64,000 bases of DNA from Gemmatimonadota bacterium (GTDB taxonomy: Bacteria; Gemmatimonadota; Gemmatimonadetes; Longimicrobiales; Gaopeijiaceae), in assembly GCA_030428885.1 (NCBI GenBank), contig JAUIEJ010000009.1:124001-188000 (forward strand), given 5' to 3'. The position numbers and the translations under genes were made by a program. Shown in pieces: positions 6,652-11,326 of the stretch; the first letter of the stretch is position 1, and each line of letters opens with the position of its first letter. The notes under the pieces are model-generated. The model did no database searches. It was not told where the DNA came from and saw only the letters and a program-made list of their open reading frames with translations.

Positions 6652-7863
6652 TCAGCCCTCGCCGTCTTCTTCGGCGGTGATGAAGCGGATGATCTCTTCG
6701 CTCACCTGCTCCGCCCCCGAGAGAACGGCGTGGGTCTCGTCGACGAAGGCGTCGGCGGGCAGGCGGTCGTGCAGGTCCAGGAAGGGCACGCCGGACAGGG
6801 TGGTCCGGAGCAGATCCAGGTAGGCCTCGTACCGCTCGGCCTCGTAGTACTGCAGGCTGATGGGGTTCTCCGGCATGTTCACCACGTACAGCCGCGACCC
6901 GTGGCGGGCGGCGAATTCCCTCAGGTCGCCCAACTGGGCCTGCACCATCTCCGCTTCGGCCCCGGGGTCCCATTCGTACACGACCCGGGAGAACGACTGC
7001 TGCGCCAGATCCTCGGCCAACCACGCGGGGTCGAGGGGTCGCATGTACTGGGTCTGGTAGGGCGACCCGTACACCGAGAGCCACATCCGGAGGGTGGGCA
7101 CCACGCCGTGGTCCCGGGTGAATGCGGCCAGCACCGGGACGTCGTTCCAGTTCAGGGGATTCCAGACGTCGTCCAGGAACTCGAGCTCGCCCACGTCGGC
7201 CCTCTCCCAGCCGGCGGCCCCGAGGCCCTCGTCGAGCCAGGCGGCCAGGGCGGCCCGGAACCGGGGCTGCTGCTTCCGCGCCAGGAACCTCAAGCGGCTT
7301 CGCTCGCCCTCCAGCCGCGACTTGGGCTCGAGCCTGGACCGGAGTCGGTCGGGCACGACCCGGCGATGGGGGCTGTAGTCGTTGATGGCGTTGAAGAGCG
7401 GACTGTAGGCGCCGACCAACCGCCCCGGCCCGAAACGCCGGGGGAAGTTGCCGACCATGCGGACCGTCACCCCCACGACGATCACCTCGGGAACGGCCGC
7501 CGAGCCGTACACCTCCTCGATGTAGTTCAGGACCACCAGGACGTCGTCCACGGTGCCGGTACTGATCCCCGACGGGACGATGCGATGGTCGGGAAAGGCC
7601 GCCCTGAACCGGTCCAGCAGCATGTTCTCTCCCGTCTCCGACGCCCCCACCAGGATCATCCGCCGTCCGGGAGGCTCCCGAACCAGGGAGGGAAGGAGGA
7701 GCCGGATCGGGTCCTCGCCGGCCAGGTAGGGATACGCCTTGCCCTGGACCTCCGACCCGACGGCGAGTCGGCCCAGCGCCCAATGGAGCGAGCCGTACAC
7801 CATCCCGGTCACGACCAGGGACAGGACGAGGGCTCGCGCGCGATCAGAACCCGGTGTAGACAA
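6652..7863 (-). CDS. Membrane-anchored SGNH-like acyltransferase, DltD/AlgX-type partner of the MBOAT
   Basis: A 403-residue protein with one N-terminal membrane segment (about 11-30) and an extracytoplasmic domain. An SGNH-type nucleophile block is visible as L-V-G-A-S-E-T-G-E-N with S75, and the C-terminal dyad as D375-E-T-H378 followed by A-V-L-S-G. DltD uses the same arrangement: a membrane anchor, an early Gly-x-Ser and a late D-x-x-H. In DltD the serine receives the acyl group from the shuttle peptide and passes it to the polymer. This gene is last in the five-gene operon, and its start overlaps the microprotein gene by 20 bases. The family assignment rests on motifs and context; overall similarity to DltD is not claimed. 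Confidence 0.72.
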   Translation of the reverse strand: MSTPGSDRARALVLSLVVTGMVYGSLHWALGRLAVGSEVQGKAYPYLAGEDPIRLLLPSLVREPPGRRMILVGASETGENMLLDRFRAAFPDHRIVPSGISTGTVDDVLVVLNYIEEVYGSAAVPEVIVVGVTVRMVGNFPRRFGPGRLVGAYSPLFNAINDYSPHRRVVPDRLRSRLEPKSRLEGERSRLRFLARKQQPRFRAALAAWLDEGLGAAGWERADVGELEFLDDVWNPLNWNDVPVLAAFTRDHGVVPTLRMWLSVYGSPYQTQYMRPLDPAWLAEDLAQQSFSRVVYEWDPGAEAEMVQAQLGDLREFAARHGSRLYVVNMPENPISLQYYEAERYEAYLDLLRTTLSGVPFLDLHDRLPADAFVDETHAVLSGAEQVSEEIIRFITAEEDGEG

Positions 7864-7948
7864 AATCCATCTCCGTCTTGGCGAAGACGAACAGCAGGGC
7901 CATCAAGACCACGATGAGCGCGATCCGAAGCACGACGCGGCGGTTCAT
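7844..7948 (-). CDS. DltX-like transmembrane microprotein with C-terminal acyl-shuttle motif
   Basis: This 34-residue protein has a basic N-terminus (M-N-R-R), one membrane helix (about residues 7-23) and an outside tail that ends exactly in F-V-Y-T-G-F. In the Dlt pathway the microprotein DltX has this architecture; its final hexapeptide of the form F-[IV]-Y-x-x-F carries the acyl group on the tyrosine. The gene overlaps the MBOAT stop by ATGA and the SGNH gene by 20 bases, so all three should be made together in fixed ratio. The codons are clean across the whole small frame, with no internal stop. The assignment comes from motif, topology, size and position. It is easily missed by gene callers with a length cutoff. 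Confidence 0.75.
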   Translation of the reverse strand: MNRRVVLRIALIVVLMALLFVFAKTEMDFVYTGF

Positions 7949-9162
7949 CGACCGAGCAGCCTTCCGAACACCGTGAAGGCCTCGTTCCAGGGGAGGTTGA
8001 AGAACACGAAGGCCAGGGCCGTGGCATGGAACGTCAGGATGATCCCGCCCGCGTGTACGAGCCCGTTCTGCCTCCACACCCTCACGCGCTTCTTTCCGAA
8101 TCGATGGGTCAGAAACGTGTTCCAGTTGTGATACACGACCAGGAACGCCGCATGGGCCAGACCGAAGAACAGGAACGCGAGGGTGGTGCCGTGCCAGAGG
8201 CCCGACACCACCATGGTGGCGACGAGGCTGACGTTGACCGCCACCGCCGGTCTCGCCAACACCGACTCCGAGGTGAGCGCCCATTTGTAGAGGGGCGAAA
8301 ACACGTAGTCGGTCAGCCACAAGGTCAGCGACCGGTGCTGCCGCAGCCAGAAGTCCGAGATGTTCCGAGCCAGGAACGGCTTGTCGAAGTTCTCCGGGGG
8401 ACGTACCCCCAGCAGGCTCCCCACCCCGATGACCACATCGCAGTAGCCCGAGAAGTTCAGGTAGAGAAAGAACCAGAACGCGTAGACCCCGACCCAGAGC
8501 TGGGTGACGGACGCCGTCAGGACGTCGGTGCCGGGGAGCAGGGCGAACGGCTGGACCCACACGGCCAGGACGTAGGCCTTGAGAAGCCCGACCAGGATGC
8601 GGATGACGGCGTCCAGATGGGCTTCCAGCGTCGGCGCCAGGGCCGGCGTGCGGCCGTGCCACTGATCGTGGAAGTCGTCGTAGCGCTGGATGGGGCCCAT
8701 CATGAACGTGGTGAAGCTGAAGCAGTAGTTGATGAAGGTCAGGAACTCGAGGGGGCGGGACGTTCCGCTGGCCGCCTCGATCATGACGTGCACGACCCTG
8801 AAGAGGAGGAAGCTCAGCCCCACCGTGGCGAAGGCCCCGGTCAGGACGAACTCCGGCGCCACCCAGTGGAGGATGTCGTAGTTCCGCATGTACACGAACA
8901 TCCCCACGTACACGGGAATGAGCAGCCGGTAGGCGAGGTGTTTCCGCTTCAGGATCGCCCGGGCGAATCCATACCCCACGAGACAGAACAGGAACGACGA
9001 CACGAGCCCCTGGAGGCCCAGCAGCATCCGACCGACGAAGTAGACGTTGATGAACAGGAAGACCCATGCCCGCGCCCGTCCGCGAAGCAGTCCCACGGAC
9101 AGGACCGCGGCGACGGCCAGGCCCAGGAACTGGACGGAGAGGAGGGAGAACCCGACGGGCAT
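7945..9162 (-). CDS. MBOAT-family membrane O-acyltransferase (DltB/AlgI type)
   Basis: A polytopic membrane protein of 405 residues. Classic DltB/AlgI features are present: F-L-Y-L-N-F-S-G-Y-C-D-V-V-I-G near 232-246; N-F-D-K-P-F-L-A-R-N-I-S-D-F-W-L-R-Q-H-R-S-L-T at 258-280; G-L-W-H-G at 321-325; and the presumed catalytic H337 in G-L-A-H. DltB moves an acyl group from a carrier-protein thioester on the inside to a tyrosine on the outside. The MBOAT here ends without the aromatic hexapeptide that some MBOATs carry at the C-terminus; the neighbouring microprotein supplies it instead. The start ATG lies 54 bases after the carrier-protein stop. Confidence 0.93.
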   Translation of the reverse strand: MPVGFSLLSVQFLGLAVAAVLSVGLLRGRARAWVFLFINVYFVGRMLLGLQGLVSSFLFCLVGYGFARAILKRKHLAYRLLIPVYVGMFVYMRNYDILHWVAPEFVLTGAFATVGLSFLLFRVVHVMIEAASGTSRPLEFLTFINYCFSFTTFMMGPIQRYDDFHDQWHGRTPALAPTLEAHLDAVIRILVGLLKAYVLAVWVQPFALLPGTDVLTASVTQLWVGVYAFWFFLYLNFSGYCDVVIGVGSLLGVRPPENFDKPFLARNISDFWLRQHRSLTLWLTDYVFSPLYKWALTSESVLARPAVAVNVSLVATMVVSGLWHGTTLAFLFFGLAHAAFLVVYHNWNTFLTHRFGKKRVRVWRQNGLVHAGGIILTFHATALAFVFFNLPWNEAFTVFGRLLGR

Positions 9163-9216: not shown

Positions 9217-9462
9217 TCAGGACCCGGATCGAGCCACGACGAGGTCCAGCAGTTCCCCGACGTCGGCCAGGTTCGCGATCTCGCCGGTGGTGAGCTTGAT
9301 CCCGAAGGCCCGCTCCACGGCGACCATCAACTGGATGTGGGCCAGCGAATCCCATCCGTCCACATCGGCGGCGGTGGTGTCCCGGGCCAGGCGGAGGTCG
9401 GGCTCGTCGAGCACGTCGCGGAAGACCTGCGTGAGCTTCTCCATTGCGGCGCCGTCACTCAT
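9217..9462 (-). CDS. Acyl carrier protein of the MBOAT operon
   Basis: An 81-residue four-helix carrier protein. The phosphopantetheine site is S39 in D-G-W-D-S-L-A-H-I-Q-L-M, and the N-terminal helix M-E-K-L-T-Q-V-F-R-D-V-L-D-E is typical. The ATG at 9462 overlaps the end of the upstream FkbH gene (ATGAGTGA) and has GGAG upstream; an ATG 15 bases earlier is possible. The protein should hold the acyl unit made by the FkbH enzyme as a thioester for the MBOAT, the role DltC has in the Dlt pathway. No dedicated phosphopantetheinyl transferase or acyl ligase lies nearby, so a housekeeping transferase would activate it. Confidence 0.9.
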   Translation of the reverse strand: MSDGAAMEKLTQVFRDVLDEPDLRLARDTTAADVDGWDSLAHIQLMVAVERAFGIKLTTGEIANLADVGELLDLVVARSGS

Positions 9463-11326
9463 CGGATTCCACTCCATTGGCCGGCTCCGCCACGCGGATG
9501 GCCGGCTGAAAGGGTCGGTAGTCGTCCAGATCGATCACCCATTCGCCCACCGCTCCTTCCACGGCGGCGAAGCCCAGCGAGGGGTACAACTCGGCGACCA
9601 GACCGTTCTTCGCGGTGGGCCGGTAGAGCCCCCGGATGCGGGCGGCACCGAGCCGAGCCGCGCCTTCGGCGATGCGATTGGCCATGAGGTGTTCCACCCC
9701 CCGACCGAAGACGCGACAACTCATGAGCCACAGGTCGACGACGAACGTATCGCCGTCCAGGTGACCCGCGGCCACGCTGATCAGCCCGTTGTCGCCGAAG
9801 CGGTCCGCGAGCCGGACGTGGAGTCCGAGCTTCCCCGGATCGGTGCGGTAGCGCTCGAGTTCGGTCCGCGTCAGGCGACGTGTCGTGAGGTTGAACTGGT
9901 TGGTCTTGTTCGTGAGCTGCGTGATGCGCTCCATGGACGTCTCGTCGAAGACGCCCACGGTGGCGATCTGGTCGAGGGACTCGAGATAGCCCTCGTAGTC
10001 CAGGGTTTCGGACTTCAGGGCCTCCCGCTGGGCGTTCTCCCGATACAGCCGCCCTCGCACCCGGTCCTCGTCGCTCAGGGCCACGGTCTCGAACCACCCC
10101 GTGGCGTCGAGGGCGAGCGGGTAGTCGGCGGGATCGTCGGGAAGTTCCACGACCCGCACGTCGGGGATCGCCCGTCGCACTTCCGCCCGCTCCGCCGGAT
10201 TGTCGTCGACGAACACGATGGAGTCGAGCCCGATATTCAACTGGCGAGCGATCTCCACGATGTTTTCGGACTTGGGACTCCAGTTGGCCCGGAACGCCGC
10301 GAAGTCGGCCCGGCGCAGAACCATGTCCGGGAGGACGTCGAAGGGCTCGAGGGCGTTGGCTTCCTCGTTCTTGCTGCACACGGCGAGGATCACCCCCCGA
10401 TCCCCCAGCTCCTTGAGGTAGGACTGGAACGCCTTGTGGGATTCCGCCACGGCGTCGCCTTCGCCGATGCGCAGTCCCTCCACCCCGTCGTCGCCCACCA
10501 CACCTCCCCACAGCGTGTTGTCGAGGTCGACCACGACACACTTCGCACTCTTCCCCCGCAGGGCGCCCACCACCTGGGCCATGCTCCGCACGTAGGGAAC
10601 CATGCACTCCAGGGAGACGGGCTGTTTCGCGTGGTACCAGAAGCGGTGGTCGAACCACCGCAGGACGCCGTGAAGGGACGCCAGGGTCGCCACGTCGTTG
10701 ATGTGGACGTAGGCGGGTGCCCGGGCGGCCAGCGCGTGGTTCACCTCCCGGAGGAACCGGTTGCGGTCCCACGGAATGCGGGTGCCCGCGCTCCCGAGGG
10801 GTCGGGTGGGCAGGGGGTGGAAGTTGTTCAGCACCACGTCACACCCCACCCGGTCGTGGAGCGATCCGGCGAGTCGGAGCCACTCGTCGACCACCCGCTC
10901 CACCGCCTCGGCGGCCTCCTCGGGAGACGAGCCCACCGCCGGCCACGTCGAGACGTCGAAGACCGTGGGAGCCACCACCGCGACCTCGGGCCGGAAGCGG
11001 GCCGTGGCGCTGTCGGGGTCCAGCATCTCCCGGGCGATGACCCCGTAGTCGGCCCGGAAGAGATCGGTGGCCAGACCGGCGGCCTCCAGCGCGAGGCGCA
11101 GGGGCTTCTCCACGAGATCCATGCTCGCCCCGCCCAGGAGGGCGACCCGCAGAGGGTCGCCCGCGCCGGGCTCGCCGGATGCGGGGTCCCGGGCCGTGAG
11201 GCGATCGTGCCACCGGCAGAGGGTGGCGAATCGCAGGTAGTCGGTCTCGGACCGGGCCAGCGTCCTGAGACGGGCCCGGGCGGGACCGAGGTCCCCGCGC
11301 TCCACGAGGGTCTTGAGGATCTCCAC
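9455..11326 (-). CDS. FkbH-like HAD-IIIC phosphatase/acyl-loading enzyme
   Basis: A 623-residue protein. An N-terminal SGNH-like region (about 58-255) is followed by the HAD-IIIC/FkbH core with D267-L-D269-N-T-L-W-G-G-V, V-C-S-K-N-E and F-V-D-D-N-P-A-E-R, and a GNAT-like C-terminus (about 440-600, with S-C-R-V-F-G-R-G-V-E and Y-P-S-L-G-F). Characterised FkbH-type enzymes take 1,3-bisphosphoglycerate, remove the phosphate and leave glyceryl on an acyl carrier protein; other members load related three-carbon units. The next gene is such a carrier. GTG at 11326 is chosen because GGAG lies six bases upstream; the open frame extends to 13030 but crosses the epimerase genes. This gene replaces the DltA ligase of the Dlt pathway. 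Confidence 0.9.
   Translation of the reverse strand: MEILKTLVERGDLGPARARLRTLARSETDYLRFATLCRWHDRLTARDPASGEPGAGDPLRVALLGGASMDLVEKPLRLALEAAGLATDLFRADYGVIAREMLDPDSATARFRPEVAVVAPTVFDVSTWPAVGSSPEEAAEAVERVVDEWLRLAGSLHDRVGCDVVLNNFHPLPTRPLGSAGTRIPWDRNRFLREVNHALAARAPAYVHINDVATLASLHGVLRWFDHRFWYHAKQPVSLECMVPYVRSMAQVVGALRGKSAKCVVVDLDNTLWGGVVGDDGVEGLRIGEGDAVAESHKAFQSYLKELGDRGVILAVCSKNEEANALEPFDVLPDMVLRRADFAAFRANWSPKSENIVEIARQLNIGLDSIVFVDDNPAERAEVRRAIPDVRVVELPDDPADYPLALDATGWFETVALSDEDRVRGRLYRENAQREALKSETLDYEGYLESLDQIATVGVFDETSMERITQLTNKTNQFNLTTRRLTRTELERYRTDPGKLGLHVRLADRFGDNGLISVAAGHLDGDTFVVDLWLMSCRVFGRGVEHLMANRIAEGAARLGAARIRGLYRPTAKNGLVAELYPSLGFAAVEGAVGEWVIDLDDYRPFQPAIRVAEPANGVESDE

Follow-up and report, generated by a model that had tools for sequence, protein, structure and literature searches.

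A conserved 34-residue membrane microprotein as a probable acyl-shuttle subunit in an FkbH, ACP, MBOAT and SGNH gene cassette

The window, that is the whole 64,000-nucleotide stretch of Gemmatimonadota DNA that was analysed, carries a 34-residue membrane microprotein which is likely to be the acyl-shuttle subunit of a five-protein relay composed of FkbH, an acyl carrier protein (ACP), an MBOAT, the microprotein itself and an SGNH protein. The small frame is a genuine gene, and a shuttle role for its product is strongly supported, with neither biochemical evidence nor a complex prediction behind the relay. The acyl-Tyr intermediate, the identity of the glyceryl group and an extracytoplasmic acceptor are all inferred. 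If the relay operates as we propose, this five-gene machine probably exports a three-carbon acid from sugar metabolism and adds it to the cell envelope; a mini-protein in such a role was known before only from the D-alanine (Dlt) system.

The microprotein frame

The microprotein lies at 7844..7948 (-), and translation of the frame 7948..7844 (-) gives MNRRVVLRIALIVVLMALLFVFAKTEMDFVYTGF. Its last six residues form the hexapeptide FVYTGF (7847..7864, (-)), with the Tyr codon at 7858-7856 and the TGA stop (7846-7844) immediately behind. A basic N-terminus and a single hydrophobic segment of 19 residues (5-23) were found, the Tyr being 8 residues beyond this segment. The first 4 nt of the frame (ATGA, 7945..7948, (-)) contain the MBOAT stop, an overlap also present in 5 of 7 relatives, and its last 20 nt belong to the SGNH frame as well, which opens at a TTG start (7863). 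Translational coupling to the MBOAT is inferred from the ATGA overlap and seems likely. The pattern F-[IV]-Y-x-x-F followed by a stop occurs once on the two strands of the window and in none of 100 dinucleotide shuffles of the same 64 kb, so that chance alone would be expected to yield none. A preliminary description, made from sequence alone, had claimed a 34-residue frame ending exactly in FVYTGF, a positive N-terminus with a single membrane helix, an overlap with both neighbours and a motif unlikely to arise by chance; all of these have held. Gene finders would skip a protein of this size, and similar microproteins may have been missed in several phyla because short frames are filtered out.

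Conservation and selection across eight loci

Relatives were searched with the MBOAT only, so that the microprotein played no part in selecting them. Seven MBOAT relatives (44-72% identity) were obtained from several phyla, making eight loci with the window: one from a genome of the same order as that of the window (L002/L017, G054), five from other genomes (L012 and L013 from Gammaproteobacteria, L014 from Binatia, L015 from Scalindua and L016 from Methylococcaceae) and a seventh, more distant one (L023/L027, G1413) from a genome related to the Binatia genome. Directly downstream of the MBOAT, all seven carry a frame of 34-40 aa, whose tail reads FVYTGF, FIYTSF, FIYTGF or FIYQAF. Across the eight microproteins the C-terminus is D-F-[VI]-Y-[TQ]-[GSA]-F followed by the stop, at which Asp -7, Phe -6, Tyr -4 and Phe -1 are invariant while the codons for them vary.

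The frame is unbroken at all eight loci and is under purifying selection. Third codon positions are the most changed and second positions the least, and pS exceeds pN in 28/28 pairs by Nei-Gojobori counts, the closest pair (L012/L016) having a dS of 1.24 and a dN of 0.21. The conservation checks set beforehand (invariance of the Tyr and of both Phe, intact frames, and more synonymous than non-synonymous change) were all favourable. Wider searches, including 395 genomes of the window's own phylum, 369 of a class and several other groups, recovered few additional members, and the family is therefore rare or patchy in the sample drawn. It is worth adding that the Scalindua MBOAT (L015:6001-7217) shares 72% identity with that of the window (7945-9162) over its second half; since the two come from different phyla, horizontal transfer is suggested. 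The Scalindua MBOAT frame is interrupted in that assembly.

The MBOAT and its SGNH partner

The MBOAT (7945..9162, (-)) is a DltB-like protein of 405 aa. It matched TIGR04091 at an E of 2.5e-53 (181.7 bits), under the equivalog cut-off of 375; DltB proteins were its only sequence matches in the PDB (E 9e-34), and DltB was the best structural match to its AF2 model. Its C-terminus reads FTVFGRLLGR, and the absence of a C-terminal motif, as the preliminary description had claimed, is confirmed. H324, within SGLWHGTT, aligns with H336 of DltB, and H276 aligns with the His of the DltB F-W-N-R-W-H stretch; both are invariant. The earlier naming of H337 as the MBOAT histidine failed in part, as the counterpart of DltB H336 is H324, yet H337 is invariant as well.

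The SGNH protein (6652..7863, (-)) has an N-terminal membrane anchor. A Pfam profile search of it returned no match, and the DltD profile PF04914 matched none of the SGNH proteins from four split cassettes (window, L012, L017 and L027) at E <= 1, while the control, DltD of Klebsiella electrica, was matched at 4.6e-22. Its assignment rests on an SGNH hydrolase fold together with a catalytic Ser and an Asp-x-x-His, namely S75, D375 and H378; the S75 named earlier is confirmed as invariant, together with the other two. With a model of modest confidence, the closest structure was DltD (6o93; Z 11.8 over 266 aligned residues), and other SGNH enzymes were matched too, DltD, TesA and PatB all lying at Z 10-12. 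The AF2 models (mean pLDDT 66 and 56) were built from 5-6 sequences and are of weak to modest confidence; hence they were used for fold class only.

FkbH and ACP complete a five-gene cassette

The preliminary description had overlooked FkbH and the ACP, which complete a five-gene cassette by adjoining the MBOAT, microprotein and SGNH genes in 7 of the 8 loci. The FkbH-type HAD-IIIC glyceryl transferase/phosphatase (9459..11326, (-); about 622 aa, with a probable GTG start at 11326; PF21211) scored 312.6 bits against TIGR01686 (E 2.8e-93), over the curated cut-off of 146.65, and its HAD residues D267, D269, K352, D374 and D375, as well as C537, are invariant among 11 sequences. The ACP (9217..9477, (-)) has a DSL serine and matched PF00550 at an E of 2.9e-8; its likely start, ATG 9462, lies in an ATGA overlap with the FkbH stop. 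Gene order is FkbH-ACP-MBOAT-microprotein-SGNH in the window and MBOAT-microprotein-SGNH-FkbH-ACP in the others. Linkage to FkbH and ACP was thus kept despite reordering, which argues for a joint function. In fact, the cassette copy is the only FkbH in the window's genome. The exception is Scalindua, whose locus is the one nearest to the window; it has the MBOAT, the microprotein and the SGNH protein but no FkbH in its genome assembly, so either FkbH can be dispensed with or the assembly is at fault.

No DltA, the adenylating enzyme that loads the carrier in Dlt, was found in any cassette, and none scored above the TIGR01734 cut-off in the eight genomes. Only FkbH and ACP are shared by the seven FkbH-bearing split cassettes, among which no dehydrogenase, oxidase or methyltransferase is conserved, and no neighbouring gene common to all loci was found that would name the acceptor. 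Glycosyltransferases and a flippase were observed as neighbours at L013 and L014. An AlgX-like SGNH protein (PF16822) lies directly behind the ACP at L016:6119-7450 and L017:2629-4167; it could possibly be a second acyltransferase or an acceptor-binding partner.

Fused equivalents and the MBOAT tree

Four FkbH- and ACP-containing systems carry the tail motif fused to the MBOAT C-terminus: L028 and L029/L035, both with FVYVPF, L030 with FVYQEF and L032 with FLYFNF (the L029/L035 genes sit at the ends of two contigs). One Methylococcaceae genome (G407) holds one split and one fused system. Ordinary MBOATs of the window's phylum also have fused tails, mostly FIYFQF. The microprotein therefore provides what these other MBOATs carry on their last helix, and we regard it as a split-off acyl-shuttle tail. 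In the MBOAT tree, for which the two readable pieces of the interrupted Scalindua MBOAT were joined end to end (for this use only), the eight split-type MBOATs form one clade (100/99) that groups with the fused L028-L030 (98/96), and DltB proteins stand apart, on the side of ordinary fused MBOATs. A constraint that unites split-type MBOATs with DltB comes at a cost of 8.6 log units (p-AU 0.025). An origin separate from Dlt is thus mildly favoured, the rejection being mild and long branches being present. At least two split or fusion events are implied, suggesting that separation or fusion of the tail happened on more than one occasion; their direction is undecidable in an unrooted tree.

In two fused-type FkbH cassettes a radical SAM protein adjoins the ACP (L028:6332-7987 and L035:7012-8628), with a B12-binding domain found in that of L028; perhaps this protein alters the acyl group in such cassettes.

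Relation to known systems

The hexapeptide Tyr of PatA is acylated and then used by PatB, and DltX acts likewise for DltB and DltD (PMC12148441). The microprotein meets the DltX-type form, with its single helix, basic N-terminus and F-x-Y-x-x-F at the C-terminal end. Homology to DltX received no support from Pfam, NCBIfam or hhalign. PF12459 (DltX) matched 0 of the 8 microproteins at E <= 10, while the control, Enterococcus DltX, was matched at 8.6e-16, and it found no match in the window's genome; hhalign gave a probability of 1.5%. Short length limits the sensitivity of the profile search and weakens the hhalign test. The earlier claim of a DltX-like acyl-shuttle form, F-[IV]-Y-x-x-F, is supported in form and role: the microprotein probably works like DltX, and homology is neither demonstrated nor excluded with sequences this short.

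As in Dlt, which D-alanylates teichoic acid, a separate one-helix microprotein ending in F-[IV]-Y-x-x-F accompanies an MBOAT without a C-terminal motif, a carrier-protein donor and an SGNH partner of DltD-like fold. Unlike Dlt, FkbH takes the place of DltA, the microprotein and the SGNH protein are unrecognised by the DltX and DltD families, the MBOAT falls under the DltB cut-off and on another branch of the tree, and the microprotein (34-40 aa) lies between the MBOAT and SGNH genes, whereas DltX comes first in its operon. With PatA/PatB and AlgI-type systems the cassette shares the hexapeptide F-[IVL]-Y-x-x-F at a C-terminus and transfer from MBOAT to SGNH protein; in those, however, the motif is part of the MBOAT and acetyl-CoA serves as donor, while here the motif sits on a protein of its own and an acyl-ACP is the probable donor. 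An FkbH-type HAD-IIIC enzyme beside a stand-alone ACP is likewise known from tetronate and methoxymalonyl polyketide pathways, but here its product appears to go to a relay of membrane acyltransferases rather than to a polyketide synthase or a tetronate-forming enzyme.

According to a 2025 paper (PMC12148441), neither a carrier protein nor a DltX-like microprotein occurs in non-Dlt MBOAT/SGNH pathways. The cassette has both, and offers a counter-example from several bacterial phyla. No paper linking FkbH to an MBOAT relay was found in the literature searched, which omits most subscription journals; a text search for FkbH with MBOAT returned natural-product papers only.

Proposed relay and alternative explanations

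Joining FkbH loading to transfer by the tail Tyr and the SGNH protein into one relay is an inference. In the cytoplasm, FkbH would take a 3-phosphoglyceryl unit from 1,3-bisphosphoglycerate, remove the phosphate and load glyceryl on the ACP. The MBOAT would accept glyceryl-S-ACP from the inside and esterify the Tyr of FVYTGF at the outer mouth of its tunnel, after which the microprotein tail would acylate Ser75 of the SGNH protein, which is anchored in the membrane and would pass the group on to a hydroxyl of a polymer or glycolipid of the envelope. As no oxidase or methyltransferase is common to the split cassettes, the simplest cargo is plain glyceryl. A bolder reading would be envelope glycerylation, in which 1,3-bisphosphoglycerate, a high-energy intermediate of glycolysis, powers by way of FkbH and ACP the export and esterification of glycerate, with a split microprotein that arose independently of DltX; we consider this as likely to be wrong as right. 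If this is true, the cell may export glycerate directly to modify its envelope.

It remains possible that the same relay carries another cargo, either a different three-carbon acid loaded by FkbH or a glyceryl-ACP modified before export. In its favour, glyceryl-ACP is oxidised and methylated in other pathways with FkbH, the membrane trio occurs in Scalindua in the absence of FkbH, and the fused-type locus L030 has methyltransferase, SDR- and dehydratase-like frames nearby; against this stands the lack of any conserved dehydrogenase or methyltransferase in the seven FkbH-bearing split cassettes. Far less probable is a divergent Dlt system that delivers D-alanine, with the microprotein as a genuine orthologue of DltX. 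The MBOAT does resemble DltB, the SGNH protein resembles DltD, and the tail is built like that of DltX, which reads FIYNEF in Enterococcus. Nonetheless, DltA is missing from the cassettes and from the eight genomes at its cut-off, PF12459 and hhalign do not recognise the microprotein, and a common clade of its MBOAT with DltB is mildly rejected; D-alanylation is set aside because FkbH replaces DltA.

The microprotein could also be a structural helix that holds the MBOAT and the SGNH protein together, its motif being a docking tail without chemistry. DltX has in fact been described as binding both partners as well (PMC12148441). We find this unlikely, as all eight loci preserve the Tyr, the flanking Phe and the placement right at the C-terminus, and the same motif is found on fused MBOATs, at which the Tyr is acylated in PatA (PMC12148441). 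Finally, the frame is short and overlaps both neighbours, as might be expected of a chance frame in a GC-rich overlap that is no gene at all. This is all but excluded by its presence in all eight loci, of diverse base composition, by the codon-position pattern and by the absence of the motif from every shuffle. An acyl-shuttle subunit remains the preferred reading.

Two further plasmids deserve mention. On a Leptolinea plasmid (AP024711.1), an MBOAT without a C-terminal motif was observed (L038:4419-5870), with no motif-bearing small frame just downstream. A Klebsiella electrica plasmid (NZ_CP041250.1) carries a Dlt-like operon (DltD, MBOAT, AMP-binding protein and ACP) and, at L041:2638-2760, a 40-aa "hypothetical protein" which is unmatched by PF12459 and is DltX-like, in a Gram-negative host, ending in FEYQKF.
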